A stretch of DNA of 64,000 nucleotides from an uncultured Roseburia sp. (GTDB lineage: Bacteria; Bacillota; Clostridia; Lachnospirales; Lachnospiraceae), in assembly GCA_947567625.1 (NCBI GenBank), contig CANONN010000003.1, positions 1 to 64,000 of the forward strand, in the 5' to 3' direction. A model generated the notes under the pieces. It did no database searches. It was not told the origin of the DNA and was given only the letters and a program-made list of their open reading frames with translations. Of this stretch, positions 1,851-14,090 are shown piece after piece. Position 1 is the first letter of the stretch, and each line of letters opens with the position of its first letter. Both the position numbers and the translations under genes were made by a program.

Positions 1851-1982
1851 CTCCATTCCGAAGCGTTTTTGCGGAGGAACGCAGACAGAATCTCAAATTC
1901 TGTCTTGCGATCAGAGAAATTTGCGACGCTCCGGCACAAATTTCCGGTTTCATAAATTGCTCATCGGAGAATTTGTGAAACC
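1851..1982 (-). promoter_or_regulatory. structured intercistronic element A, upstream of rnfB
   Basis: On the minus strand the gap from rnfA to rnfB reads as three hairpins and a tail. P1 is 1982-1946, arms GGTTTCACAAATT and AATTTATGAAACC, with one mismatch. P2 is 1944-1916, arms GAAATTTG/CAAATTTC. A conserved CTGATCG follows, then P3 at 1905-1883, arms AGACAGAAT/ATTCTGTCT, then the tail GCGTTCCTC...CGGAATGGAGG. The P2 loop (1934-1926) can pair with the tail at 1866-1858, with one mismatch, as a pseudoknot. The tail contains the rnfB ribosome binding site. The same skeleton with different arms occurs at 13028-13173. It could be a cis-acting RNA or a transcribed intergenic repeat; the function is unknown. 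Confidence 0.65.
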
Positions 1983-1992
1983 TTTTTCCTCC

Positions 1993-2589
1993 TTAAATCA
2001 TTCCTGAGAATCCCATAAACGCAATTGACATCAGACATGCGGTAATCAGTACAATTGCAGTACCCTGGAAAGGCTTTGGTATATCGTTGTATTCGATCTT
2101 CTCACGCAGGCCGGCCATGATGACGATCGCGATAAAGAAACCGATCGCCGTTGCCAGACCGTTTACCACGCTCTCCAATATGCCGTACTCTTTGGTCACA
2201 TTGGTAAGCGCCACACCGAGCACCGCGCAGTTGGTGGTGATCAACGGCAGATACACGCCCAAGCTCTCGTACAGAGGCGGCATATTCTTCTTTAAGAACA
2301 TCTCTACGAACTGCACCAGCGCCGCGATCACGAGAATGAACACGATCGTCTGTAAATAAGTCAGATCAATGCCCTTTTCCATCAGCGCCTGATTCGCAAG
2401 GATAAATTTGTAAATCAGAGAAGTGACAAGGGACGCGATGCCGATGACAAAGATCACGGCGCCGCCCATGCCGGCAGCTGTTTTTGTATTCTTAGATACG
2501 CCCAAGAACGGACAGATTCCAAGGAACTGGCTTAATACCACGTTATTGACAATCGCAGAGCCAATCGCTATTAAAATTAATTCTTTCAT
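1993..2589 (-). CDS. rnfA: Rnf complex subunit RnfA
   Basis: RnfA is an integral membrane subunit of the ferredoxin:NAD oxidoreductase and is homologous to NqrE. The 198-residue protein starts MKELILIAIGSAIVNNVVL and has about six hydrophobic segments. It carries a conserved cysteine in the LGICPFLG segment near residue 26 and a second in the related half-repeat TTNCAVLG near 110. In the family these two cysteines coordinate an iron-sulfur centre between RnfA and RnfE inside the membrane. It follows rnfE by 14 bases and precedes rnfB, in the usual C-D-G-E-A-B order. Length and motifs are normal. Confidence 0.96.
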   Translation of the reverse strand: MKELILIAIGSAIVNNVVLSQFLGICPFLGVSKNTKTAAGMGGAVIFVIGIASLVTSLIYKFILANQALMEKGIDLTYLQTIVFILVIAALVQFVEMFLKKNMPPLYESLGVYLPLITTNCAVLGVALTNVTKEYGILESVVNGLATAIGFFIAIVIMAGLREKIEYNDIPKPFQGTAIVLITACLMSIAFMGFSGMI

Positions 2590-2603
2590 CCGTATCTATC
2601 CCC

Positions 2604-3326
2604 CTATTCTGTTTTGTTGGCGTCCGCGTTTGCTGTCACACTTCTGCCCGTGCAGAGTGCCGACTGCCCACAGGCGGAACAGTCGCCGGTCAGGCAGCCT
2701 GACGGAGCCGCCAGCGGTTTGCCTTTTGCTTCCATCTTCTTGCGGACAATATTCATCACTGCAACCAGGCAGGCCAGCACAAGGAACGCCCCCGGAGCCA
2801 TAACAAAAATGGTGATCGGCGTAAACCAGTCTAACGAAAGCACCTGTACGCCAAAGATCTGTCCCGCCCCAAGGATCTCACGGAGCAAGCCGATGCAGGT
2901 AAGGCCAAGGGTAAAGCCCAGCCCCATGCCGATACCGTCAAAAATCGAGGGAACCACCGGATTCTTGGAGGCATAGCTCTCCGCACGGCCCAGGATAATA
3001 CAGTTTACAACGATCAGCGGGATATAAACGCCCAGCGATTCGGACAGGCTCGGAAGGTATGCCTGCATCATAAACTGCACCATAGTCACCAGGGAAGCCA
3101 CGATCACGATAAAAGCCGGGACACGCACGCCTCCCGGAATCACCTTACGGAATGCGGCAATCAAAAGGTTGGACAATACCAACACCACTGTCGTGGAAAG
3201 TCCCATACCAAGTCCGTTGATCGCTGAGGATGTGACCGCCAGCGTCGGACACATGCCGAGCATCAGGACAAACGTGGGGTTTTCCTTGATAATACCGTTA
3301 TATAAACGCTCTACATTCTTGTTCAT
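2604..3326 (-). CDS. rnfE: Rnf complex subunit RnfE with cysteine-rich tail
   Basis: RnfE is the membrane partner and paralogue of RnfA. Family signatures are LGMCPTLAVT near residue 25 and VVNCIILGRAE near 108, which carry the conserved cysteines. About six membrane helices fill residues 15-205. The start ATG overlaps the rnfG stop by one base, and its AGGAGG site lies inside the rnfG 3' end. The last 35 residues are unusual: a hydrophilic tail with four cysteines in the pattern C-x4-C-x2-C-x5-C. That tail is not needed for the membrane core and may bind a metal or an iron-sulfur cluster. This is an inference from cysteine spacing only. Confidence 0.94.
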   Translation of the reverse strand: MNKNVERLYNGIIKENPTFVLMLGMCPTLAVTSSAINGLGMGLSTTVVLVLSNLLIAAFRKVIPGGVRVPAFIVIVASLVTMVQFMMQAYLPSLSESLGVYIPLIVVNCIILGRAESYASKNPVVPSIFDGIGMGLGFTLGLTCIGLLREILGAGQIFGVQVLSLDWFTPITIFVMAPGAFLVLACLVAVMNIVRKKMEAKGKPLAAPSGCLTGDCSACGQSALCTGRSVTANADANKTE

Positions 3327-3934
3327 TAATTTGCACCTCCTAATACGTTCTGGAAGTATGTGATGCAGGCGTTGACGCCGTTGGCCATCGCCTTGGAAGT
3401 AATCGTGGAGCCGGAGATCGACTCGATTTCGCTGTCAGATGCGGGAGTCTGTTTTACCACCGTAAAAGAATCCACATTCTTGCCCTCAAACTGGCTGTAG
3501 AAAGATTCCTCCTGGGCTTTCATGCCAAGACCCGGCGTCTCCGCGATCGAAGTGATGGAATAGCCGTTGACCGTGCCGTCATTCTGGATACCGACAGAAA
3601 ACGTGATCGTGCTCTGGCTGGCATCCTTTGCAGTTACAGTGATCACATAACCGATGACACTGCCGCCTGCGTCTTTGGCGGCTACCACTTGCTCAATCTC
3701 ATCGGCATAGCCCTCCTCTTTGAGCAGGCTGTTTGCCGCTTCCTCGTCAAACCCCTCGTAATCCTCAAAAGAATCCGCATCTGCAAACACCTGTTTGTAT
3801 GCGTTCTGTGTTTTTTCGTAATTGACTTTCTCGATCGGCTCCTTGGTGATACCGTACACCAGGGCGAGCATAAGTCCCAAAACAATGGTGAAAGCAAATA
3901 AAATTAACGCGTCATGTACGATCTTTTTACTCAT
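3326..3934 (-). CDS. rnfG: Rnf complex subunit RnfG, FMN-binding
   Basis: RnfG carries a covalently bound FMN on the outer face of the membrane and passes electrons through the Rnf complex. The 202-residue protein has one N-terminal membrane helix (about residues 8-29) and an extracytoplasmic FMN-binding domain. The flavin attachment motif is SGSTITS near residue 175, whose second threonine is the expected attachment site. PGLGMK near residue 135 is also typical. The gene starts four bases after rnfD and overlaps rnfE by one base, consistent with tight translational coupling. Family assignment is firm. Confidence 0.95.
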   Translation of the reverse strand: MSKKIVHDALILFAFTIVLGLMLALVYGITKEPIEKVNYEKTQNAYKQVFADADSFEDYEGFDEEAANSLLKEEGYADEIEQVVAAKDAGGSVIGYVITVTAKDASQSTITFSVGIQNDGTVNGYSITSIAETPGLGMKAQEESFYSQFEGKNVDSFTVVKQTPASDSEIESISGSTITSKAMANGVNACITYFQNVLGGAN

Positions 3935-3937
3935 ATG

Positions 3938-4888
3938 TTATTTGCCCCCTTCCTTGCTCTTTGCCTCTTTGACTACGCCAAAGGCTCTCGGCACCGTGAT
4001 CTTTTCAATCATCGGCACAAGCAGGTTGCTTAAGATAATGGCAAAGGAAACGCCCTCTGCGTTCGCGCCCAGCGTGCGGAACAGCCCTGTTAAGATACCG
4101 CAGCAGATACCAAAGATAATCTGGCCGACCGGCGTGATCGGGGAAGTGACATAGTCGGTCGCCATAAAAAATGCGCCGAGCATCAATCCGCCGCCGCAAA
4201 GCTGCGCCACCAGATAATTGGCGTCTAAGCCGTGGCCTCCAAACACAAGGGTAAAAATAGCAAACGTAATAATGTAGGACGCCGGAATCTTCAAGTCGAT
4301 GACGTTCATCAGAATCAGGAAGATCGCACCGATTAAAATGGCAATCACGGATGTCTCGCCGATCGTACCAGCGGTACGTCCGATCAGCATATCCAATGTA
4401 TTGACCGTCTCGCCGTTACGCATAGCTGCAAGAGGCGTCGCGCCGGTATAGGCGTCGGTCACATAATTAGTCATATCGGCGGCAAACGCGATCAAAAGGA
4501 AGCATCTTGCGCCGAGCGCGGGGTTCATAAAGTTCTGCCCCAGACCGCCGAATAAGCACTTCACGACAATAATTGCAAACACACCGCCAATCACTGCCTC
4601 CCACCAGGGAAGATTGACCGGTAAGTTTAACGCCAGCAAAAGTCCGGTCACAACCGCGCTGAAATCCTTGACCGTCTGGTCTTTGTGTACAATCTTGTTG
4701 TACACCCACTCAGAAGCCACACAGCTTGCGATTGTCACTGCCATCAGCAATAATGCTTTCCATCCAAAATTATAGATACCAAACAGGCTCGTCGGAACCA
4801 GTGCAATCGCTACATAAAGCATGATCTTCCCAGTGGTATCTTTGGAACGCACGTGCGGTGATGATGAAACATGATATAAATCACTCAC
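3938..4888 (-). CDS. rnfD: Rnf complex subunit RnfD, FMN-binding membrane protein
   Basis: RnfD is a multi-helix membrane subunit homologous to NqrB. It binds FMN covalently through a threonine and lies on the ion path of the complex. The 316-residue protein begins MSDLYHVSSSPHVRSKDT and has eight to ten hydrophobic segments. It carries the flavin motif TGATPLAAM near residue 150. GLGQNFMNPAL near 118 is also conserved in the family. It sits between rnfC and rnfG with a 38-base gap to rnfC. Length is slightly below that of the proteobacterial homologues, as usual in Firmicutes. Confidence 0.95.
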   Translation of the reverse strand: MSDLYHVSSSPHVRSKDTTGKIMLYVAIALVPTSLFGIYNFGWKALLLMAVTIASCVASEWVYNKIVHKDQTVKDFSAVVTGLLLALNLPVNLPWWEAVIGGVFAIIVVKCLFGGLGQNFMNPALGARCFLLIAFAADMTNYVTDAYTGATPLAAMRNGETVNTLDMLIGRTAGTIGETSVIAILIGAIFLILMNVIDLKIPASYIITFAIFTLVFGGHGLDANYLVAQLCGGGLMLGAFFMATDYVTSPITPVGQIIFGICCGILTGLFRTLGANAEGVSFAIILSNLLVPMIEKITVPRAFGVVKEAKSKEGGK

Positions 4889-4926
4889 GATAATCCACCT
4901 CTCTATTCTATAGAATCTTAATGTTA

Positions 4927-6249
4927 TTATGATTTCTTACGTTTTGCGGCCAGCACCTGTTTTTTCATCGTCTTGATCGACTGAGCCAGCTGCCTTCTCG
5001 CCGGGCAGGCAAAACTACAGCTTCCGCACTCGATACACTCAAGGCCGAACCACTGCTCGAACTCCTCCGACAGGCCGTTGTTCGCAAACTTGGCCAGCCG
5101 CGACGGTATCAACTGTTCCGGGCAGGCTGTGACACAGCGACCACAGTTGATGCAGGCCGACGGCGCAAGCGCTGCCACCTCGTCCTTTGTCAGACACAGC
5201 AGGGAGGAAGAAGTTTTCGTTGTCGGAATATCCAAGCCAAACATGGAAAATCCCATCATAGGGCCGCCGGATATGATCTTCTCGGGCTGCTCTTTGAATC
5301 CGCCTGCGGCGTCGACCAGTTCTGTATAATTGGTGCCGATACTGTAGAGGAAATTGCCCGGCTTGCTCACGGCGTCACCGGTAATCGTTGAGACACGCTT
5401 CATCACGGGCATGCCCAATTTCACTGCATTGTAAACGGCGATAATCGTCTCCACATTGTCCACGATACAGCCTGCGTCCGCCGGCAGCATCTTAGAGTTG
5501 ATCGCGCGACCCGTCACAGCGTAGATCAGCTGTCGCTCGCCGCCCTGCGGATACTTTGTCTGAAGCGGACAAACCTCAAGCCTTGGATCGTCCTTTACCA
5601 TCTCCTGCAATTTGGCAATACAGTCCGGTTTGTTATTTTCAATCCCGAAAATGCCTTTCGCTTTTCCGAAAAGCTGAAGAATGATCTTCATGCCCTCGAT
5701 CAGCTCTTTGGGATTCTCCATCATCCGGCGGTAGTCGGCGGTCAGATACGGCTCACACTCCGCGCAGTTTGCAATGATGTACTCAATTTTTTCCGGCTCT
5801 TTGGGAGAGAGCTTTACATGCGTGGGAAATCCCGCGCCACCCATTCCTACGACGCCGGCCTCTTTTACTTTGTTGATAATGTCCTCTTTGGAAAGCTTTG
5901 TCACATCATCGCATGATGTGTACGCTGCTTCCGTAAACTCACCGTCGTTTTCAATGACGATGGCGTTTACCATGTCGCCCACTGCTACGCGGCGTGGTTC
6001 AATGGCTTTCACCGTACCTGACACGGAGGAATAGATCGGAGAAGACACAAAACCGCCCGCTTCCGCGATCTTCTGCCCTTTCAAAACCTTATCCCCGACA
6101 GCTACAATCGGAGTGGCAGGTGCACCGATATGCTGAGATAACGGATATACCAGATCACCCTTAGGTACAACTTCAACGATCGGCTGATCTTTTGCCAGTT
6201 CCTTTCCTTCATAAGGATGGACGCCACCTTTAAATGTCTTTAAACCCAT
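4927..6249 (-). CDS. rnfC: Rnf complex subunit RnfC, NADH-binding
   Basis: RnfC is the soluble subunit that binds NADH and FMN, related to the 51-kDa subunit of complex I. I place the start at the ATG at 6249 (MGLKTFKGGVHPYEGKEL), which matches the family N-terminus. An in-frame GTG fifteen bases upstream is possible but adds only five residues. A glycine-rich nucleotide-binding stretch GMGGAGFPTHVKL lies near residue 135. Two ferredoxin motifs near the C-terminus read CINCGRCVTACP and CIECGSCSFACP. It is the first gene of the operon, downstream of an extended -10 promoter. Confidence 0.95.
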   Translation of the reverse strand: MGLKTFKGGVHPYEGKELAKDQPIVEVVPKGDLVYPLSQHIGAPATPIVAVGDKVLKGQKIAEAGGFVSSPIYSSVSGTVKAIEPRRVAVGDMVNAIVIENDGEFTEAAYTSCDDVTKLSKEDIINKVKEAGVVGMGGAGFPTHVKLSPKEPEKIEYIIANCAECEPYLTADYRRMMENPKELIEGMKIILQLFGKAKGIFGIENNKPDCIAKLQEMVKDDPRLEVCPLQTKYPQGGERQLIYAVTGRAINSKMLPADAGCIVDNVETIIAVYNAVKLGMPVMKRVSTITGDAVSKPGNFLYSIGTNYTELVDAAGGFKEQPEKIISGGPMMGFSMFGLDIPTTKTSSSLLCLTKDEVAALAPSACINCGRCVTACPEQLIPSRLAKFANNGLSEEFEQWFGLECIECGSCSFACPARRQLAQSIKTMKKQVLAAKRKKS

Positions 6250-6278
6250 TTGTTCGTGCCCCACTTTCTCTTATTTTG

Positions 6279-6355
6279 TATTCTGTTCCGTTCAAGTGAA
6301 CCTGAACCAGAACAACTATCTAATAAATTATACCATAAATATAAAAAGAATGAAT
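6279..6355 (-). promoter_or_regulatory. rnf operon promoter and 5' leader hairpin
   Basis: On the minus strand an extended -10 element TGGTATAAT lies at 6335-6327, with only a weak -35 about 17 bases upstream. Transcription would begin near 6320 and leave a leader of about 70 bases. That leader contains a hairpin around 6279-6312 built on GTTCA/TGAAC and TTCTG/CAGAA arms. I saw no other promoter candidate as good in this gap. Confidence 0.55.
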
Positions 6356-6440
6356 CTTTTTCTTGTACTTTTTTTAATACTTTCGACAAAAACAATATTT
6401 TTTAGGAAACAAATTGTTGCATATGTACCAAATTATCTTA

Positions 6441-6460
6441 AGTTTATGTTAAACTAAAGT
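6441..6460 (+). promoter_or_regulatory. probable promoter of the YprB-like gene
   Basis: An extended -10 element TGTTAAACT ends at 6455. It overlaps a perfect inverted repeat AGTTTA-TGT-TAAACT (6441-6455) that could be an operator. The context is nearly identical to the promoter of the DUF1292 gene at 58452-58460 (GTTTATGTTAAAAT). The -35 is poor, as is common with extended -10 promoters. The leader to the start codon would be about 135 bases and carries the structured element at 6487-6592. Confidence 0.45.
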
Positions 6461-6486
6461 AAATAGCATGAATGTTGCATGAAAAA

Positions 6487-6592
6487 TACATCTAAGGCTC
6501 GTGCCGGCTGGCGCTAACGTGTAACAAGTTCACGCGCCAAGATGTACTAAATTTTACGCTGAAAATGCCGTTTACGCGGCGGAATGAGAGGA
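6487..6592 (+). promoter_or_regulatory. structured leader of the YprB-like gene
   Basis: An outer stem TACATCT/AGATGTA (6487-6493 with 6540-6546) encloses stems TGGCG/CGCCA and CGTG/CACG. A small hairpin GCCG/CGGC at 6567-6580 follows, and it runs directly into GGAATGAGAGGA, which holds the ribosome binding site. The last 30 bases before the start are almost identical to those before dprA (51795-51823). The rest of the element is not shared with dprA as far as I can see. Confidence 0.55.
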
Positions 6593-6595
6593 ACT

Positions 6596-7714
6596 ATGAA
6601 AACATGGCATGAAGAAATACCCTACCGGTTTGATGAACCCGTGACAGCGGAGATTTTTACGGAGCACACCGTTTTCTTTGACATTGAGACTACCGGATTT
6701 TCGCCGGCCCACACCAGTCTCTATATGATCGGATGCGTGTCGAGGAGGGGCGATACACTCATTGTCGACCAGTTCTTTGCCGAGAAAACCATAGAAGAAA
6801 AGCTCCTTCTCCTCTCCTTTATCAATCAGATCGAGCCTTGCGATACCATAATCAGCTTTAACGGCTCAGGCTTTGACATTCCCTACCTGAAAGCGAAATG
6901 CGGCCTGTTGGGCGTAAAAAAGCGCTTCTTAGACTACGCGCATGTGGATATCTATAAAGTGGTATCACAACTGAAATTTTTGTTAAAAACCGAGAACTGC
7001 AAACAGAAATCCATTGAACAATTTCTCGGCATACGGCGGGACGATACGCTAAGCGGCGGCGACTTGATCGACGTGTACAAAAACTACTTAAATCAACCGA
7101 ACGACGAAGCGCTGTTTCTCTTAAGGCAGCACAATTATGACGACATCACCGGTCTTCCCGCACTGCTGCCGGTCCTCGCCTACGACAAGATACTCTGCGG
7201 CCATTATGCGGTAACGTCCATAGAGGGCAGCGAAACGATGGCGCAGAATGGGGAGCCGCGAAAAGAACTGTTAATCACACTCACCAACGATTACCCGGCG
7301 CCCAAGCGCGTCTCCTGTGGCAACGCCCTGTTTTATCTTTCGGTTTATAAGGACAAAACACAGATTAACGTAAAGCTCTTTGACGGAGAGTTGAAGTTCT
7401 TTTTCAAGGATTACAAAAACTACTATTATCTGCCGAAGGAAGACGCGGCCGTCCACAAAAGCCTGTCGACTTATGTGGATAAAGAGTACCGCGAACCGGC
7501 AACGGCGCAAAACTGTTACACCAAAAAAAGGGCTCTGTTTGTCCCTCAATACCGGGAAGTCATGAAACCAAAATTTGTGGAGCATTATCGAGATAAACTG
7601 TCCTACTTTGAACTGACGGAGGATTTCACCGCGTCCGACGTTATGCTGCGGCGCTATGTCAAACAGGTCTTTGATACGCTGTTCGACAAAAACAGGCATA
7701 AAAAGAAAGCATGA
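6596..7714 (+). CDS. YprB-like ribonuclease H-fold exonuclease
   Basis: The N-terminal 190 residues match the YprB/RNase_H_2 family, a DEDD-type 3'-5' exonuclease fold. The first acidic motif is FFDIETTGF near residue 28, the second is SFNGSGFDIPYL near 92, and the third is HNYDDITGL near 180. The remaining 180 residues are not recognised and may bind nucleic acid. I chose ATG 6596 because GAGAGG lies four bases upstream. The in-frame ATG at 6584 is part of the shared leader tail. The gene is divergent from rnf and convergent with cheR. Nuclease activity is inferred from family only; the substrate is not known. Confidence 0.8.
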   Translation: MKTWHEEIPYRFDEPVTAEIFTEHTVFFDIETTGFSPAHTSLYMIGCVSRRGDTLIVDQFFAEKTIEEKLLLLSFINQIEPCDTIISFNGSGFDIPYLKAKCGLLGVKKRFLDYAHVDIYKVVSQLKFLLKTENCKQKSIEQFLGIRRDDTLSGGDLIDVYKNYLNQPNDEALFLLRQHNYDDITGLPALLPVLAYDKILCGHYAVTSIEGSETMAQNGEPRKELLITLTNDYPAPKRVSCGNALFYLSVYKDKTQINVKLFDGELKFFFKDYKNYYYLPKEDAAVHKSLSTYVDKEYREPATAQNCYTKKRALFVPQYREVMKPKFVEHYRDKLSYFELTEDFTASDVMLRRYVKQVFDTLFDKNRHKKKA

Positions 7715-7741
7715 AAGAAACGAAGGTTTTGTGCAAAACGC

Positions 7742-7780
7742 AACAGGCGGGCGATAGATCCTATCTACCGCCCGCCTGTT
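7742..7780. terminator. hairpin between convergent YprB-like gene and cheR
   Basis: A very stable stem AACAGGCGGGCG/CGCCCGCCTGTT, with inner GATAG/CTATC, lies between the two convergent genes. Neither side has a strong T-run, so it may act as a bidirectional terminator or mainly as a 3' stability element. Confidence 0.6.
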
Positions 7781-7814
7781 ACAATGATAACTGCATGACA
7801 GAAAATGGTTTTCT

Positions 7815-8603
7815 TTACCGTAACGGCCGTTCAAAGAAGAACGACTTATTTCTCTCGTATCCGACATCGCGGTAATTGATAATCTGCTCCGTACTGCCGA
7901 TAAACAGGATGCCGCCGGGGGCAAGAGAATCAAAAAACTTCTGATAGATCAAATCTTTGGCCTGCTCCGTAAAGTAGATCACCACATTGCGGCAGACAAG
8001 CAGATGGCATCCGGTCGGATATGTATCTTTTAACAGATCATGCTCCTTAAACTCCACCCGCTGCTTGATCTCTTTCGAGATCTGATAGGAGGTGCCCACC
8101 CGCGTAAAATATTTCGCTTTCAGGTCATCCGGCACGGAGGCAATGCTTTTCTCGCTGTAGAGTCCCATCCTGGCGGTATCAATCACCTGCTTATCAATAT
8201 CGGTGGCAATAATTTTGATATTGCCAAGCGGCAGATGACGCGAGAGAGCCATCACGAGAGAATACGGTTCGTCTCCGGTCGAGCATGCCGCGCTCCAGAC
8301 TTTGAGGTTTTTGCCAAACCGCTTGATCAGATTGGGGATGATTTCCTTGTCCAAAATCGCCCACTGATCGGGATTGCGGTAAAATTCCGAAACATTGATC
8401 GTAAGAAAGTTGATAAACTGATCAAACTTCTCTTTATCTTTGCGCAGTAACGCCACATACGCATCATAGGTCTTGACATTATTTTTGGTGATCAGCGTGT
8501 TGATGCGGCGGCGCATCTGCTTCTCTTTGTATGAATTGAGATCAATTTTTGCCAACTGTAAAATATCTGATTTAAACTTGTTATAATTATCGGTTTCCAG
8601 CAT
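7815..8603 (-). CDS. cheR: CheR chemotaxis protein methyltransferase
   Basis: CheR methylates glutamates on chemoreceptors using S-adenosylmethionine, opposing CheB. The start is ATG 8603 (MLETDNYNKF), with AGGAGG ten bases upstream. A longer frame begins further up but has no ribosome binding site. The N-terminal helical domain carries the arginine-rich stretch QMRRRINTLI. The Rossmann domain shows the SAM-binding motif SAACSTGDEPYSL near residue 115, and LVCRNVVIYF near 205 is typical of CheR. It lies apart from the other che genes, downstream of the S1 gene and a hairpin attenuator. At 262 residues it is a stand-alone CheR. Confidence 0.95.
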   Translation of the reverse strand: MLETDNYNKFKSDILQLAKIDLNSYKEKQMRRRINTLITKNNVKTYDAYVALLRKDKEKFDQFINFLTINVSEFYRNPDQWAILDKEIIPNLIKRFGKNLKVWSAACSTGDEPYSLVMALSRHLPLGNIKIIATDIDKQVIDTARMGLYSEKSIASVPDDLKAKYFTRVGTSYQISKEIKQRVEFKEHDLLKDTYPTGCHLLVCRNVVIYFTEQAKDLIYQKFFDSLAPGGILFIGSTEQIINYRDVGYERNKSFFFERPLR

Positions 8604-8633
8604 GAAAAAGAATCCTCCTGCTCTCTTAGAAAT

Positions 8634-8694
8634 GAAAAACAGGCCGCCACGTGATGTAAGGTGTAGCATGTAGCACTTTATCACATAGCAGCCT
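8634..8694 (-). terminator. attenuator-like hairpin between S1 gene and cheR
   Basis: On the minus strand the arms AGGCTGC (8694-8688) and GCGGCCT (8647-8641) pair with one G-U. An inner stem GTGAT/ATCAC lies inside, and GTTTTTC follows. The position, twelve bases after the S1 stop and upstream of the cheR ribosome binding site, fits a partial terminator that lowers cheR expression. Confidence 0.55.
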
Positions 8695-8705
8695 AATCTT
8701 AGATT

Positions 8706-9824
8706 TTATTCTGCGTCATCCGCAACAGCGTCAATGTCAACGTCTGCGGTCTCTGCCTCCTCACTGTCCTCCGGTGCAAGCAATGCTTTCATAGACAAAC
8801 TGATCTTTTTGTCCTCTTCGTTGAAATCTACGATCTTGGCCTCGATCTCCTGGCCGACCTTTAAGATATCAGACGGTTTCTCCACATGCTCTCTGGAAAT
8901 CTGGGATACATGAAGAAGCGCATCCACTCCGGGCGCCAGCTCGACAAAAGCGCCAAAATCTGTCATACGCGCCACCTTGCCACGAATCACATTGCCGATC
9001 GCAAACTTCTCGGCCGCATCGTTCCACGGATTTTCGTTGGGGAACTTCATACTCAGCGCGATCTTGGTGTCATTGATATCTTTGATGAACACTCTCACCG
9101 TATCGCCGACATTAAATACTTTCTTTGGGCTCTCGACGCGCCCCCATGACATCTCAGAGATGTGAAGCAGTCCGTCTGCGCCGCCCAGATCGATAAATGC
9201 GCCGAAATCCGTGACATTCTTGACGGTTCCCTCTAAGATATCGCCAATCTTGATGCGTGCAAACAGTTCTTTCTGTAATTCTAACTTCTTGGCAACCAAA
9301 AGCTGCTTTCTGTCGCCGATAATCCTCCTGCGCTTTGGATTAAACTCGCTGATGACAAACTCGATCTCCGTGTCCTTGTACTTGGTGAGATCTTTCTCAT
9401 AAGTGTCTGAAACCAGGCTCGCGGGAATAAAGATACGGGTCTCATCCATGATCACACAGAGTCCGCCGTCCAGTACCTGCGCTACTTTTGCGGTCAATAC
9501 CTCTTTGTTTTCAAACGCTTCCTCTAATCTCTTGCTGCCTCTCTCCGCTGCGAGACGCTTGTAAGTGAGAACAACCTGTCCCTCTCCGTCATTGACTTTC
9601 AATACTTTGGCCTCGATAGTATCACCGACAGATACCATGGTCGTCAAATCAGCGTTCGCTTCGTTTGTGTATTCGTTGCGCGTAATAATGCCGTCTGACT
9701 TATAGCCGATATTCAAGACGATTTCTTCCGGTTTCACATCGATAACGGTACCTTCTACTACCTCCCCATTTCTTATTGTTTTCAATGATTCTTCCAACAT
9801 TTGTTCAAAACTCATTTCTGACAT
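8706..9824 (-). CDS. rpsA: S1 RNA-binding domain protein, ribosomal protein S1 homologue
   Basis: This protein has four S1 domains in tandem. They begin near residues 20 (NGEVVEGTVIDVKPEEI), 105, 190 (KIGDILEGTVKNVTDFGAF) and 275 (IGNVIRGKVARMTDFGAF), followed by an acidic tail. S1 proteins bind single-stranded mRNA and assist translation initiation; the four-domain Firmicutes forms are not always ribosomal. The start is ATG 9824 (MSEMSFEQML), with GAGGAGG eight bases upstream inside ispH. The gene overlaps ispH by 20 bases. In many Clostridia ispH and S1 are fused into one polypeptide; here they are separate frames. Confidence 0.9.
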   Translation of the reverse strand: MSEMSFEQMLEESLKTIRNGEVVEGTVIDVKPEEIVLNIGYKSDGIITRNEYTNEANADLTTMVSVGDTIEAKVLKVNDGEGQVVLTYKRLAAERGSKRLEEAFENKEVLTAKVAQVLDGGLCVIMDETRIFIPASLVSDTYEKDLTKYKDTEIEFVISEFNPKRRRIIGDRKQLLVAKKLELQKELFARIKIGDILEGTVKNVTDFGAFIDLGGADGLLHISEMSWGRVESPKKVFNVGDTVRVFIKDINDTKIALSMKFPNENPWNDAAEKFAIGNVIRGKVARMTDFGAFVELAPGVDALLHVSQISREHVEKPSDILKVGQEIEAKIVDFNEEDKKISLSMKALLAPEDSEEAETADVDIDAVADDAE

Positions 9825-10686
9825 TCTTTTGAACCTCCTCAATAATTTTGTTTGGGGTGGAAGCCCCTGCGGTAATACCTACGTTATCGATAGACTTTAG
9901 TACACTAAAATCCATATCCTTAGCGGTTTGTATATAGTAAGTATTGTTGCATTCATTTTTACATATTTCAAATAGCTTCTGCGTGTTGGAACTGTTCTTT
10001 CCTCCTACTACGATCATGGCGTCCACACGGGCTGCAATCCTGGCAGCTTCCATCTGACGTTCCTCCGTAGCATTGCAGATGGTATTTAAAACAATTATAT
10101 CATAACCTTTTTTCTCAATAATTTCAACTAATTCTTGAAATTTATTGTAATTAAATGTCGTTTGTGCTACGATACACACCTTTTTTTGCATATCCGCACT
10201 GTAATTTTCCACTTCTTCCCTGCTGTTTAAGATCGTTGTCGCCTCTGTTTTAGAGCAGCTTTTGATGCCGCGCACCTCGGGATGGTCCTTATTTCCCATA
10301 ATAACAATCTGATATCCCTCACTGCTGTAGCGCTCCACCAAGCGATGAATCTTTAAAACAAACGGACAGGTCGCGTCCACAATCTGATATCCGAGCGCCT
10401 TGATCTCATCGTAGATACCCTTTTCCACACCGTGCGCGCGTATGATGACAGTTCCGCTCGGAGGATAGCCGCGCAGCTCCTCTATGCTCTCGACGACGGT
10501 GACGCCCCTCTCCTCCAAATCCTTCACGACTTCCTCATTGTGGATAATCGGGCCAAAGGTATAGATCGGCAGACGGCTCTTTTGCGCACCGTGCTGTTCT
10601 AACTGTCCATAGACGGTGTCGATCGCCCGCTGGACGCCAAAACAGAATCCGGCGCTTTTTGCCAGCAGAATATTCTTCTCTCCCAT
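9805..10686 (-). CDS. ispH: 4-hydroxy-3-methylbut-2-enyl diphosphate reductase
   Basis: IspH performs the last step of the MEP isoprenoid pathway, making IPP and DMAPP with a 4Fe-4S cluster. Three conserved cysteines are visible: C15 in SAGFCFGV, C107 in DATCPFV and C204 in NTICNAT. The active-site histidine and glutamate motifs HNEEVV and RAHGV are also present. At 293 residues it has normal length. The start ATG follows the cmk stop by a few bases with GGAGG five bases before it. The 3' end overlaps the S1 gene, so the two are probably translationally coupled. Confidence 0.96.
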   Translation of the reverse strand: MGEKNILLAKSAGFCFGVQRAIDTVYGQLEQHGAQKSRLPIYTFGPIIHNEEVVKDLEERGVTVVESIEELRGYPPSGTVIIRAHGVEKGIYDEIKALGYQIVDATCPFVLKIHRLVERYSSEGYQIVIMGNKDHPEVRGIKSCSKTEATTILNSREEVENYSADMQKKVCIVAQTTFNYNKFQELVEIIEKKGYDIIVLNTICNATEERQMEAARIAARVDAMIVVGGKNSSNTQKLFEICKNECNNTYYIQTAKDMDFSVLKSIDNVGITAGASTPNKIIEEVQKNVRNEF

Positions 10687-10698
10687 GGCATCCTCCGC

Positions 10699-11367
10699 TC
10701 ATTTTCCTGTTTTTTCCCGATAAATTCCAAGCAGCGTATTTACGACCTGCTCGATATCCATATAGGAGCTGTCCACAAACACTGCATCGTCCGCCTGCTT
10801 AAGCGGCGCCGTCTCACGGTTCATATCGCGCTCGTCCCGCGCGATAATCTCCCGCTCGATCTCGGCCAGATCACACGTTTCTCCCTTTTCCGTCAGCTCA
10901 TCATACCTTCTCTTGGCTCTGGTGGCCGAGCTGGCGGTCAAAAAGATCTTTACCTGTGCGCCCGGCAGCACACAGGTGCCGATATCGCGGCCGTCCATGA
11001 TCACATCCGTATCCGCCGCCAGAGAGCGCTGAAGCTCCAGCAATTTTTCCCTCACTACCGGATAAGAGCTGGTGACGGACGCCATGGAGGAAACTTCCTG
11101 GGTGCGTATCACACCGTTGACATTCTCCCCGTTTAGCAGTACCTGCTGCTCGCCGTTCTCATATGCGATCTTCACGTCTATATCCGGGCAGGCCGCCCTG
11201 ATCTCCTCCTTGGTGGCAGGGATTTGATTTTTCAGCAGATAGTAAGCGATGGCACGGTACATGGCTCCGGTATCCACATAGATAAATCCCAGTTTCTTTG
11301 CCAGCCGTTTGGCAATCGTGCTCTTGCCCGCTCCGGCCGGCCCGTCAATTGCAATATTCATGCTCAT
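10699..11367 (-). CDS. cmk: cytidylate kinase
   Basis: Cmk phosphorylates CMP and dCMP using ATP. The N-terminus MSMNIAIDGPAGAGKSTIAKRL contains the P-loop. YVDTGAMYRA near residue 30 and MDGRDIGTCVLPGA near 131 are CMP-kinase signatures. The 222-residue length fits the family. GGAG lies about ten bases before the start. It is the third gene of the rpiR-baiN-cmk-ispH-S1-cheR series and is preceded by a triplicated 73-bp repeat. Confidence 0.96.
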   Translation of the reverse strand: MSMNIAIDGPAGAGKSTIAKRLAKKLGFIYVDTGAMYRAIAYYLLKNQIPATKEEIRAACPDIDVKIAYENGEQQVLLNGENVNGVIRTQEVSSMASVTSSYPVVREKLLELQRSLAADTDVIMDGRDIGTCVLPGAQVKIFLTASSATRAKRRYDELTEKGETCDLAEIEREIIARDERDMNRETAPLKQADDAVFVDSSYMDIEQVVNTLLGIYREKTGK

Positions 11368-11386
11368 ACATTATTCTCTCCTTTTC

Positions 11387-11612
11387 TATTTCTTTCATGT
11401 TAGATAATCTTTTCCATGTCTCTGCTTGATGCAACTGATTTTCATCTAACCTTTTCTTCTTTTTCTTTCATGTTAAATAACCTTTTCCATGTCTCTCCTC
11501 GATGCATTTGATTTTTCATCTAACCTTATCTTCTTTTTCTTTCATGTCAAATAATTTTTTCCATGTCTCTCTTCGGTGCAATTGATTTTTTCATCTAACC
11601 TTTTCTTCTTTT
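11387..11612. repeat. three tandem 73-74 bp direct repeats across the 3' end of the flavoprotein gene
   Basis: The string TTTCATGT recurs at 11393, 11466 and 11540, and around each the flanking 70 bases match closely (CATCTAACCTTNTCTTCTT recurs at each). The copy nearest the flavoprotein gene encodes its last residues and stop codon; the other two lie in the gap before cmk. Each unit therefore looks like a duplicated gene end. Expansion by slippage or unequal crossing-over is the likely origin. Confidence 0.85.
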
Positions 11613-13023
11613 TTGAATTTTCATGCGCAACTCCTGCCGATATCCCGGCGAGATAGCCTGTTGACCAGGCAATCTGTAAGTTGAAGCCGCCAGTCATGGC
11701 GTCCACATCCAGCACTTCGCCGCAAAAGTACAGATTTTTGATTCGCTTTGACTCCATCGTCTTGGGATTGACTTCATTTACTTTCACGCCGCCTTTTGTG
11801 ATGATCGCCTCGTTAAAACCGCGCACGCCGCACAGTGTGACCGGAAACGCCTTGATCAGCGCCAGCAGCCCGCGCCGCTCCTCTTTCGTGATTTCGTTTA
11901 CTTTCTTTTCCGGCGAAATGCCGCAAAGCCGCGGCACAACCGGAATCATTTTGGATGGCAGAAGCCCTTCGAGCGCATTTTTAAACTGTTTGTTTTTGAT
12001 TCCCTCAAAATCGCGCAAAATTCGCTTGTCGAGCTGCTCTTGTGTCAACGCGGGCTTTAAATCAATCAATAAGGACAGCTCCTGCGCCGCTGTGGCAGGC
12101 TTTATCGCCGCGCTCGCGCTCAAAATAACCGGACCGCTGACCCCAAAATGCGTAAACAATAGTTCTCCAAACTCTTCATACAGCAGTTTTTTGCCGTGCA
12201 GAATACGGATGGCGATATTTTTTAACGCCAGTCCCTGCATATCCGCGACATAAGGCTCTTTTGCCAAAAACGGCACCAGCGAGGGAGCGGGTTCGATCAC
12301 CGTGTGCCCCAGCTCCCTCGCGAAGCGGTAACCGTCGCCTGTCGCACCCGTTGTCTGGTAGGAAAATCCCCCCGTGGCTACGATGACGGCATCCGCCCGC
12401 AAAAATGTGTGGTCGGCAAGCTCTACGCCGCGCACATAACTTTCTGATCGTTCAGGAACTCCCTCCGAAACTCCTGTCTGGACAGACGGGTGCGCCGCAT
12501 CTCCTTCCCGAACAGACGAGTCCGCCTCTTCTCCTGTCTGGACAGACGGTTGTGCCGCATCTCCTTCCCGAACAGACGAGTCCGCCGCAATCCCTGCCTG
12601 ACCGCACGGCTCTGCCACAATTTTTGCCGCCCTGGTGCGCAGCATGACCTCTACGCCAAGCTGCTCCAGCTTTCGGGACAGCGCCCGTATCACATCCGAC
12701 GCGTGGTCTGAGACGGGGAACACCCGGCTGCCGCGCTCTACTTTGGTCCTACAGCCGCTGCGCTCAAAAAAGTCGATGACACGCTGATTGTCGCAGGCAT
12801 AAAATGCACTGTAGAGAAACTTTCGATTCGTCATGACGTTGGCAAACAGCTCTTCCATATCTCCAGCGTTGGTGAGATTGCATCTGCCCTTTCCGGTGAT
12901 ATAAATCTTTTTTCCCAGTTTTTCATTCTGTTCCAGCAGTACGACGCGACTGCCGCGTTCCGCCGCCGCAATGGCGGCGAACATACCGGCGGCCCCTCCG
13001 CCCACTACAATAATATTGCTCAC
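11542..13023 (-). CDS. NAD(P)/FAD-dependent oxidoreductase, BaiN/HI0933 family
   Basis: The N-terminus SNIIVVGGGAAGMFAAIAAAERG is a dinucleotide-binding Rossmann motif, and KGRCNLTN near residue 55 and VIVATGG are hallmarks of the HI0933/YhiN/BaiN flavoproteins. FCGEVLDVDAMTGGFNLQIAWSTG near the C-terminus is also typical. I favour the GTG at 13023, because GGAG lies six bases upstream. ATG 13035 overlaps the conserved leader tail, and further upstream the frame runs through the structured element. A 20-residue tandem repeat is inserted near residue 150, and the lysine-rich C-terminal tail is made from the 73-bp repeat. The reaction is uncertain; some family members act on bile-acid intermediates, but that is not shown here. 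Confidence 0.88.
   Translation of the reverse strand: MSNIIVVGGGAAGMFAAIAAAERGSRVVLLEQNEKLGKKIYITGKGRCNLTNAGDMEELFANVMTNRKFLYSAFYACDNQRVIDFFERSGCRTKVERGSRVFPVSDHASDVIRALSRKLEQLGVEVMLRTRAAKIVAEPCGQAGIAADSSVREGDAAQPSVQTGEEADSSVREGDAAHPSVQTGVSEGVPERSESYVRGVELADHTFLRADAVIVATGGFSYQTTGATGDGYRFARELGHTVIEPAPSLVPFLAKEPYVADMQGLALKNIAIRILHGKKLLYEEFGELLFTHFGVSGPVILSASAAIKPATAAQELSLLIDLKPALTQEQLDKRILRDFEGIKNKQFKNALEGLLPSKMIPVVPRLCGISPEKKVNEITKEERRGLLALIKAFPVTLCGVRGFNEAIITKGGVKVNEVNPKTMESKRIKNLYFCGEVLDVDAMTGGFNLQIAWSTGYLAGISAGVAHENSKKKKRLDEKINCTEERHGKNYLT
12471..12590. repeat. two 60-bp tandem repeats inside the flavoprotein gene
   Basis: Units 12471-12530 and 12531-12590 differ at only a few positions, and a diverged fragment follows to about 12615. 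Each encodes twenty residues with the core SVREGDAA and PSVQTG. The exact multiple of three keeps the frame. Each unit itself contains two related 30-bp halves. Confidence 0.9.
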
Positions 13024-13027
13024 ACTA

Positions 13028-13173
13028 ATCTCCATTCCGAGAACGTTTACGTTCGAGGAACCGCAGGAGAAATCTGCGAATGCAGTTTCTCCTGTCGGAT
13101 CAGGGCTTATTTGTGACGTTCTCGGCACAAATAACCGTGTGATAAAATCAGCTATCAAGCTGATTTTTCACAC
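13028..13173 (-). promoter_or_regulatory. structured intercistronic element B, upstream of the flavoprotein gene
   Basis: This is the second copy of the element at 1851-1982. P1 (13173-13137) pairs GTGTGAAAAATCAGCT with AGCTGATTTTATCACAC. P2 (13134-13107) pairs TTATTTGTG with CACAAATAA. CCTGATCCG follows, then P3 (13093-13065), arms AGGAGAAA/TTTCTCCT. The tail GCGGTTCCTCG leads into a small hairpin GAACGT/ACGTTC and CGGAATGGAG. The P2 loop CCGAGAACGT (13125-13116) is perfectly complementary to ACGTTCTCGG in the tail (13046-13037). Shared blocks with element A are TTTGTGCCG, GCGTC/ACGTC, CTGATC, GTTCCTC and CGGAATGGAG. P1 begins at the rpiR stop codon. Confidence 0.65.
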
Positions 13174-14090
13174 TAACCCCCAATTTTACTGTAATGCATC
13201 TTGATCGAATCATCAATATAATCGATCTCGTCATTCTCATAAACCTGATACTCGTCCCAAATGTCCTCCAACATCTCGAGCGTCCCCGCCACCTGCCGCT
13301 GCTTTTTCATACAGAGCGCCACGATCAGCGCGTTTATGACGCTAAGGGGCGCCACGAGTGAATCGACAATCGAAGCCATGTCGCTATCGGCGATCAGATT
13401 GCAGGAGGAGTAGAGATTCATGGGCGAGTGAACGCTGTCGGTCAAGGTGATAACTTTTGCGTTGCGGTTGTTGGCAAACTCCATCGCCTTTAGCGTGCGC
13501 ATGGAATATCTGGGAAAACTGATGCCGATAATCACATCGTCTTTACTGATCCGCACCATCTGCTCGAAAATCTCACTGGAACTGCTGGTCTGAATCAGAT
13601 GCACATTCTCAAAAATCAGGGTAAAATAGAACGCCATAAAGCTCGCCAGGGGCGCACAGCTTCTGATGCCGATGATATAGATATGTTTTGCATGCAATAC
13701 GGTGTCCACCGCAGATTCAAAGGCTTTCTGGTCAATTTTCTCCAGGGTGGAGTGTATTTTTTCCGCATCGGATTTTAAGACGCTCTCCAAAATCTCCGAC
13801 TGTGTGATGCGGCCATAAGTCACTTCCATGCGCTGGATGGAGTTTAACTTATTGCGCACCAGCTCTTCTAAGGCATTCTGGAACTCAGGATAGCCTTTAT
13901 AGCCCAGATATGTGGCGAAACGCACCACGGTTGACTCGCTCACCCCCACAATCTCCCCCAGCTTTGCCGCCGTCAAAAATACAGCCTTATCATAATAATC
14001 TGTGATATACGATGCCAGTAGCTTCTGACTCTTGCTCATCTTACTGTAAGATTCATTCATTCGATTGCGCAAATCATTTGAACTGCTCAT
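13173..14090 (-). CDS. MurR/RpiR family transcriptional regulator with SIS domain
   Basis: The 305-residue protein has an N-terminal RpiR-type helix-turn-helix (residues 1-77; GEIVGVSESTVVRFATYLGYKGYPEFQ is the recognition region). A SIS sugar-phosphate binding domain follows at about 120-255 (HIYIIGIRSCAPLA, DVIIGISFPRYSMRTLKAMEFA). Such proteins control sugar or amino-sugar genes in response to phosphorylated sugars. No sugar genes are next to it; the following gene is the BaiN-like flavoprotein, so its target is not evident. It begins just after the terminator of the fla/che operon. Confidence 0.9.
   Translation of the reverse strand: MSSSNDLRNRMNESYSKMSKSQKLLASYITDYYDKAVFLTAAKLGEIVGVSESTVVRFATYLGYKGYPEFQNALEELVRNKLNSIQRMEVTYGRITQSEILESVLKSDAEKIHSTLEKIDQKAFESAVDTVLHAKHIYIIGIRSCAPLASFMAFYFTLIFENVHLIQTSSSSEIFEQMVRISKDDVIIGISFPRYSMRTLKAMEFANNRNAKVITLTDSVHSPMNLYSSCNLIADSDMASIVDSLVAPLSVINALIVALCMKKQRQVAGTLEMLEDIWDEYQVYENDEIDYIDDSIKMHYSKIGG

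Follow-up and report, generated by a model that had tools for sequence, protein, structure and literature searches.

What are the two similar structured sequences that fill intercistronic gaps in the genome of an uncultured Roseburia sp., and how did they come to lie directly in front of start codons? The window analyzed here is a 64,000-nucleotide stretch (positions 1 to 64,000 of the forward strand of contig CANONN010000003.1, assembly GCA_947567625.1). Within it, element A separates rnfA from rnfB and element B separates an rpiR-family regulator gene from a BaiN-like gene. Both were found where a first-pass annotation of the window had placed them, in the same orientation to the next gene and spanning the interval from the upstream stop to the following start. 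Our analysis indicates that they are probably copies of a small mobile element, structured and non-coding, that the host would tolerate since each insertion would restore the ribosome-binding site.

Elements A and B belong to a dispersed family, and their likeness is more than a chance resemblance. A motif search of their own genome returned 31 places, about half of which proved to be true copies on inspection. A covariance model was built from 11 own-genome copies, including A and B, all of which match it by construction; against the same genome it gave 71 matches at E ≤ 1 and 45 at E ≤ 1e-3 (two overlap slightly). Matches at E ≤ 0.01 occurred in 12 of 61 genomes. The distribution within the genus is patchy: counting the own genome, 37 were scanned, of which 26 carry no match, four a single match and the remaining seven 9–46 each; one genome from another family has 13. 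Order-wide, 8 of 196 genomes (own genome included) were positive at E ≤ 1e-4, spread over two families. An exact-motif scan of named genomes matched at least 117 stretches, and the matches listed came from records titled Lachnospiraceae, Acetatifactor, Eisenbergiella, Roseburia, Parablautia intestinalis D8-82 and Lachnospiraceae bacterium COE1, among others. In 80 of these stretches together with two viral-collection loci, the model found 89 matches at E ≤ 1e-3, including a few that are doubtful or lie in antisense. Copies identical across 143 nt sit 5' of unrelated genes. Thus, the further copies expected of a structured element by the first-pass annotation are present in the own genome, in Lachnospiraceae records and in a second family of the order. 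The element is short (about 100–185 nt), non-coding, dispersed and high in copy number, as are MITEs such as BOX and RUP. At the gathering score, Rfam gave no match anywhere in the window, HEARO and riboswitches included, and permissive scans of A and B returned only matches far under the family cut-offs; the same annotation had likewise recognized no riboswitch or RNA family. Plasmids gave no match to element B, and phages gave three partial ones, in unannotated faecal 'Bacteriophage sp.' records (including L453, MT836788.1) that are possibly bacterial DNA.

The conserved fold comprises three hairpins (P1, P2 and P3) and a pseudoknot between the P2 loop and the tail. We aligned 51 cores running from P2 to the Shine-Dalgarno sequence, namely element B and 50 others chosen from 76 representatives (less than 90% alike, out of 155 copies) by omitting 26 long, truncated or odd ones. 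Across P2, P3 and the pseudoknot, 90.6% of cells were paired versus 77.6% in shuffled alignments, 195 cells were double-changed versus 59.7, and the covariation score was 0.369 versus 0.150; none of 500 shuffles reached any of these values. Pairs changed on both sides numbered 16 versus 12.6 in shuffles, a count matched by 8 of the 500, and slid-register controls paired at 30–48%. The pseudoknot is absent from the model used to find the copies, and its score is lowered by eight alignment rows with an extra loop base that stand in a shifted register. When loops were compared with tails independently of any alignment, a loop and its own tail shared on average 8.10 consecutive complementary bases versus 6.15 with partners swapped (maximum 6.88 in 2000 trials, none reaching 8.10); in 6 of the 51 copies the complementarity is just 3–6 bases. 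At the base of P1, 74 of 90 distinct copies have all of the first five bases paired to their own partner strand; with partners swapped in 1000 trials, full pairings averaged 45.3 and peaked at 55. In the 32 copies that do not start with TGTGA, full pairing to the own strand occurs in 20, versus a mean of 0.8 with partners from TGTGA copies. Folding energies are -52.3 kcal/mol for A and -65.5 kcal/mol for B (z of -5.1 and -10.1 against shuffles). The proposal that RNA structure is under selection is supported, as the arms vary yet remain paired and the P1 base, P2, P3 and the pseudoknot all covary; so is the proposed P2 loop/tail pairing, whose longest run, G-U counted, reaches 10 bases in B and 9 bases in A.

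A fourth hairpin, P4, goes beyond the earlier description, as do the dispersal and apparent mobility of the family. P4 (TTCC..GGAA, also of GTC..GAC and GCC..GGC types) was 90.0% paired versus 76.6% in shuffles, a level reached by none of 500, with two of the five measures no higher than in shuffles. It uses the same 3' strand as the pseudoknot, and the two are mutually exclusive over most of that strand. In the helices, G-U occurred in 75 cells and A-C mismatches in 47; these cells are not independent, and the excess leans weakly toward the sense RNA strand. In some copies (L049, L051, L054, L057, L270 and L272), additional small hairpins, for example CGTGAACTTGTTCACG, stand between P1 and P2 or within P3, as if hairpins had been inserted into the element. 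One own-genome copy, L053, is chimeric, with a P4 tail joined to a P2 3' arm, like a template-switch or recombination product.

The family has a marked site preference. At 146 of 161 distinct places the copy ends in a canonical Shine-Dalgarno-like tetranucleotide, and in 126 of these an open reading frame (ORF) of at least 40 codons, or one running to the locus end, opens just 3' (ATG in 117, GTG in 9). The distance from GGAG to the start among the 126 was 6 nt in 90 and 7 nt in 26, that is, 6–7 nt in 116 of 126; for ordinary ATG-starting genes of the own genome it was 6 or 7 nt in 99 of 314. Of the 111 copies with an intact 5' end, 84 have a Shine-Dalgarno-like motif no more than 14 nt upstream of the element, as against 20 of 111 for a control window; in genome G093 a GGAGG stands a few bases 5' in 13 of 14 near-identical copies read. 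A repeat family with an element-borne Shine-Dalgarno sequence at fixed spacing agrees with one of the two possibilities raised initially, an intergenic repeat that supplies the ribosome-binding site.

Comparison with relatives revealed corresponding sites that have no copy of the element. Between rnfA and rnfB it is absent in 29 of 29 relatives among the matches listed, two of which have a different hairpin element there; the typical sequence is GGAGGAAAAA-(N)-ATG, and at the BaiN junction it is likewise absent in 29 of 29 among the matches listed. The sister genomes G032 and G064 are 92% identical at the rnf locus and hold 15 and 13 element matches, respectively. Of ten insertions private to one or the other, eight have as counterpart a plain Shine-Dalgarno/spacer/start junction and one (L269/L292) a plain sequence lacking the start codon. 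The tenth counterpart (L266/L316, G032) is diverged and includes a stretch resembling the element P2; L316 thus carries element-like remains, possibly a decayed copy, and is not a clean empty site. Different subfamilies also precede related genes (L052 in G000 and L086 in G002, with proteins starting MNDYIVRATAA and MKDYIVRATAA), which suggests independent insertions. From these sequence comparisons the family appears to be mobile, with insertions that fall between the native Shine-Dalgarno sequence and the start codon.

In the mechanism that we favor, the element would enter, in the sense orientation, the handful of bases that separate the Shine-Dalgarno sequence of a gene from the start codon. 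The original Shine-Dalgarno sequence would remain upstream, and the 3' end of the element (..AATGGAG plus a 6–7 nt spacer) would become the new ribosome-binding site, from which translation would proceed. Insertion would then be nearly harmless and copies would build up at gene starts. The 3' strand of the RNA would pair either with the P2 loop, forming the pseudoknot, or with the 5' arm of P4. The fold is most likely kept since the mobilizing machinery, presumably including a trans-acting factor, recognizes folded RNA or a single strand; it would thus serve the element rather than regulation.

Several results weigh against this mechanism. Twenty of the 146 canonical copies have no downstream ORF of at least 40 codons, although several of them still have an ATG at 6 or 7 nt with a short frame. 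Predicted accessibility of the new Shine-Dalgarno sequence was 0.34 versus 0.33 with shuffled elements, and that of the old one 0.39 versus 0.35 (70 of 79 distinct copies, 58 with the upstream motif, folded without pseudoknots; mean folding energy -53 versus -31 kcal/mol shuffled). Gain rather than loss is read from most relatives being without the element, not from a tree. No terminal inverted repeats were seen on inspection (5' end TGTGAAAA..., 3' end ...AATGGAG), filled/unfilled pairs have a Shine-Dalgarno-like motif on both sides and no constant target-site duplication, and the exact termini are uncertain within about 3 nt. The only clearly common site among 22 loci compared between G032 and G064 (L075 in G032, L273 in G064) has an element identical at 143 of 144 positions, with 1-kb flanks about 90% identical and downstream third codon positions 76% identical; such conservation is not required of a purely selfish element and could reflect selection, gene conversion or late transfer. 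Machinery is also elusive. There was no Y1 transposase match in 6 of 8 element-rich genomes (G000, G002, G006, G015, G032 and G064), no match to RVT_1, the reverse transcriptase expected with a retroelement or group II intron derivative, in 5 of 9 (G002, G023, G032, G064 and G043) and no DEDD_Tnp_IS110 match in 7 of 11 (G000, G006, G015, G026, G032, G064 and G093). For Y1, G026 gave a single match and G023 a fragment, and element-free genomes such as G035 do contain it; RVT_1 had one or two matches in G000, G006, G015 and G026 and 15 in element-free G016; IS110 had one each in G043 and G182, and sub-cut-off matches alone in G002 and G023. The element-rich genomes are mostly drafts, and drafts often miss repeats and mobile genes, so these absences are suggestive only. 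A self-comparison of ORFs covering 840 kb, roughly one quarter of the own draft assembly, revealed no multicopy transposase-like ORF that might mark a full-length parent with matching ends, and the downstream ORFs offered no candidate for an element with its own gene; this search is weak because drafts lose repeats and one quarter of the genome was compared.

The alternative that survives best concerns how copies spread. Excised or copied elements could recombine at short homologies with no dedicated transposase, a route we regard as possible yet somewhat unlikely. Both borders, GGAG-ATTAG-TGTGAAAA and GGAG-ATTAn-nATGAAAA, resemble an ordinary ribosome-binding site followed by a gene start. 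Among the 111 intact copies the last three bases 5' of the element are TAG in 68, AAG in 13 and TAC in 7, and this triplet is linked to the 3' spacer (TAG with ATT.. in 54, AAG with GAA.. in 12). Five family-2 copies before unrelated genes carry a common spacer, ATTTCT, which is the native spacer of one such gene in the relative G015, as if the spacer moves along with the element. The BaiN-like gene starts with GTG here, whereas most of the relatives listed use ATG, which in several of them overlaps the stop codon upstream. In addition, 12 of 111 copies follow a sequence that resembles the tail of another element by a regular-expression match. However, the homologies are about 20 nt, short for RecA-type recombination; a model of crossover at the Shine-Dalgarno sequence fits some filled/unfilled pairs and fails others; and the border pattern fits targeted insertion at GGAGG-like sequences plus selection equally well.

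A cis-regulatory RNA (a riboswitch, thermosensor or protein-binding leader with a pseudoknot/P4 switch) copied to many genes as useful regulation is improbable. It would account for the conserved covarying structure adjoining the ribosome-binding site, a riboswitch-like trait, with both covarying pairings sharing the 3' strand beside the Shine-Dalgarno sequence, and it would draw on the conserved L075/L273 copy and on the weak sense-RNA lean of the mismatches. Yet 131 downstream ORFs belong to no recurrent family, the largest group being five ABC-ATPase-like proteins, followed by pairs. Such unrelated genes are not those of a pathway-specific riboswitch, and we rejected a pathway or metabolite riboswitch on this diversity. 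Insertion sites differ between close relatives, down to the single clearly common site in the sister genomes, and most genomes of the genus are without the family. Sequestration or exposure of the Shine-Dalgarno sequence by the fold was also discarded, as its accessibility did not differ from shuffles in pseudoknot-free folding. The suggestion of a new cis-regulatory RNA is therefore not supported in the riboswitch sense, given the lack of common function among the 131 ORFs and the differing sites; each copy may nevertheless affect translation of its host gene locally. Least probable of all is a non-autonomous derivative of IS200/IS605 (hairpin ends, Y1), IS110 (guide RNA) or a SINE-like retroelement: hairpins at both ends, the lack of inverted repeats and the fixed orientation suit it, and a folded RNA whose loop is complementary to the end of the same molecule formally resembles the IS110 donor guide, but the three drivers went undetected in many element-rich genomes, mostly drafts, on which ground we set them aside, and no copy with an internal gene was seen with a model that would not join widely separated halves.

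A mobile element that restores the ribosome-binding site remains our preferred reading; among known kinds it comes closest to small interspersed repeats (BOX, RUP, bcr1, REP), with a real chance of a new class. Searches limited to open-access literature, preprints excepted, found no description of such an element. The bcr1-type repeats of B. cereus are similarly dispersed in a Gram-positive group and able to fold; we know of no restriction of theirs to the gap between Shine-Dalgarno sequence and start. HEARO and IscB omega-RNA elements are mobile structured RNAs inserting beside ATGA/GTGA, whereas here no nuclease gene was seen in a copy, Rfam gave no match and the anatomy is different. The available part of a study of pneumococcal repeats (PMC3049150) describes BOX, RUP and SPRITE as having extensive secondary structure with an expected effect on co-transcribed genes, gives BOX and RUP terminal inverted repeats and target duplications, and mentions the Shine-Dalgarno sequence once, in stating that BOX-made ORFs have no good one. 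Like the repeats described there, the present elements are small, structured, interspersed and apparently inserted into one another; unlike for BOX and RUP as portrayed in that text, neither terminal inverted repeats nor target duplications were seen, and the present elements have a covarying pseudoknot, a placement in the Shine-Dalgarno/start gap and a Shine-Dalgarno sequence of their own. IStrons, according to excerpts of PMC4227781, are likewise mobile elements that make their own insertion harmless, though they self-splice, where restoration of the ribosome-binding site is proposed here. REP/BIME sequences, in extracts of PMC3733652, are also short palindromic repeats of high copy, but REP measures 20–40 bp as opposed to about 100–185 nt with several helices, a pseudoknot and a position before start codons.

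If correct, our reading would describe a mobile element specialized for the translation start, which would avoid harm not by splicing out but by rebuilding the ribosome-binding site. In some genomes the translation signals of dozens of genes, here including rnfB, appear to have been replaced by it, and the family may alter gene expression and translational coupling in Lachnospiraceae of the gut. We tentatively propose, at less than even odds, an undescribed class of mobile element that targets the translation start, with the two-state fold and the portable Shine-Dalgarno sequence as a unit, that moves without Y1, IS110 or reverse transcriptase, possibly by ribosome-binding-site recombination or an RNA-recognizing factor, and whose niche is occupied by several differently built structured families in the same genome. 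The covarying pseudoknot/P4 alternative offers a concrete RNA to probe, and the mobilizer is a well-posed question.

Table 1. Parts of elements A and B and a further hairpin copy, in window coordinates. Both elements and their host genes lie on the (-) strand.
Feature	Position	Strand	Basis
Element A, 132 nt, rnfA/rnfB gap	1851..1982	(-)	model match 1851-1980, E 6.4e-22; A in training set
A: P1 hairpin, 5' terminal	1946..1982	(-)	fold
A: P2 hairpin	1916..1945	(-)	fold and covariation
A: pseudoknot strand in P2 loop, CCGGAGCG	1927..1934	(-)	loop/tail pairing, covariation
A: P3 hairpin	1881..1908	(-)	fold and covariation
A: pseudoknot strand in tail, CGCTTCGG, common to P4	1858..1865	(-)	pairing, covariation
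A: alternative hairpin P4 (TTCC...GGAA)	1856..1879	(-)	family-level covariation; weak in A itself
A: own Shine-Dalgarno GGAG, 6 nt 5' of rnfB ATG	1851..1854	(-)	sequence, spacing count
Native rnfB Shine-Dalgarno GGAGG, now 5' of element A	1988..1992	(-)	comparison with relatives
Element B, 143 nt, gap between rpiR-family gene and BaiN-like gene	13030..13172	(-)	model match E 6.2e-25; B in training set
B: P1 hairpin	13138..13172	(-)	fold
B: P2 hairpin	13104..13136	(-)	fold and covariation
B: pseudoknot strand in P2 loop, CCGAGAACG	13117..13125	(-)	loop/tail pairing
B: P3 hairpin	13061..13097	(-)	fold and covariation
B: pseudoknot strand in tail, CGTTCTCGG, common to P4	13037..13045	(-)	pairing, P4 covariation
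B: alternative hairpin P4	13035..13060	(-)	fold and family covariation
B: own Shine-Dalgarno GGAG, 6 nt 5' of GTG start	13030..13033	(-)	sequence, spacing count
TAG bordering B on 5' side, stop codon of rpiR-family gene	13173..13175	(-)	sequence
Short-hairpin copy at start of ORF listed 6584-7714	6562..6598	(+)	sequence, clustering

The genes flanking A and B owe their names to Pfam matches: Rnf-Nqr for rnfA, FeS/Fer4 for rnfB, HI0933_like for the BaiN-like gene, and rpiR-HTH plus SIS for the regulator, which stops a few codons early here, at the TAG on the border of element B. The start codons 3' of the elements are the rnfB ATG at 1844-1842 and the BaiN-like GTG at 13023-13021.

Further element types occupy the same place. 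When the sequences upstream of 705 starts in the 840 kb were clustered, groups of 13, 11, 7, 3, 3 and 2 members emerged at the same distance from the start; a second structured family, a short-hairpin family and a further pair all end in a Shine-Dalgarno-like stretch before the start codon. The second structured family has 11 copies in the 840 kb (L362, L365, L367, L384 and L381 among them), several with a GATTGAAAATTAAAATTTTCAATC hairpin, followed by ...TTTGTGTCTGCGCG... and a tail ...GCAGAAATGGAG before the start codon. At the rnfA-rnfB spot itself, L099 (G004) and L101 (G019) carry a different hairpin element; by eye, the second loop of the one in G004 may pair with the tail adjoining its Shine-Dalgarno sequence. 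The short-hairpin family (AATGCCGC..GCGGCGGAATGAGAGG) lies directly 5' of start codons in seven copies in the 840 kb, of which one falls in the window and others are L361, L366, L370, L372, L377 and L380. A further type with two copies, L394 and L361 in the own genome, starts with TAGTGTGAAAAATACATCTAAGGC and ends in GGGGATTA before ATG.

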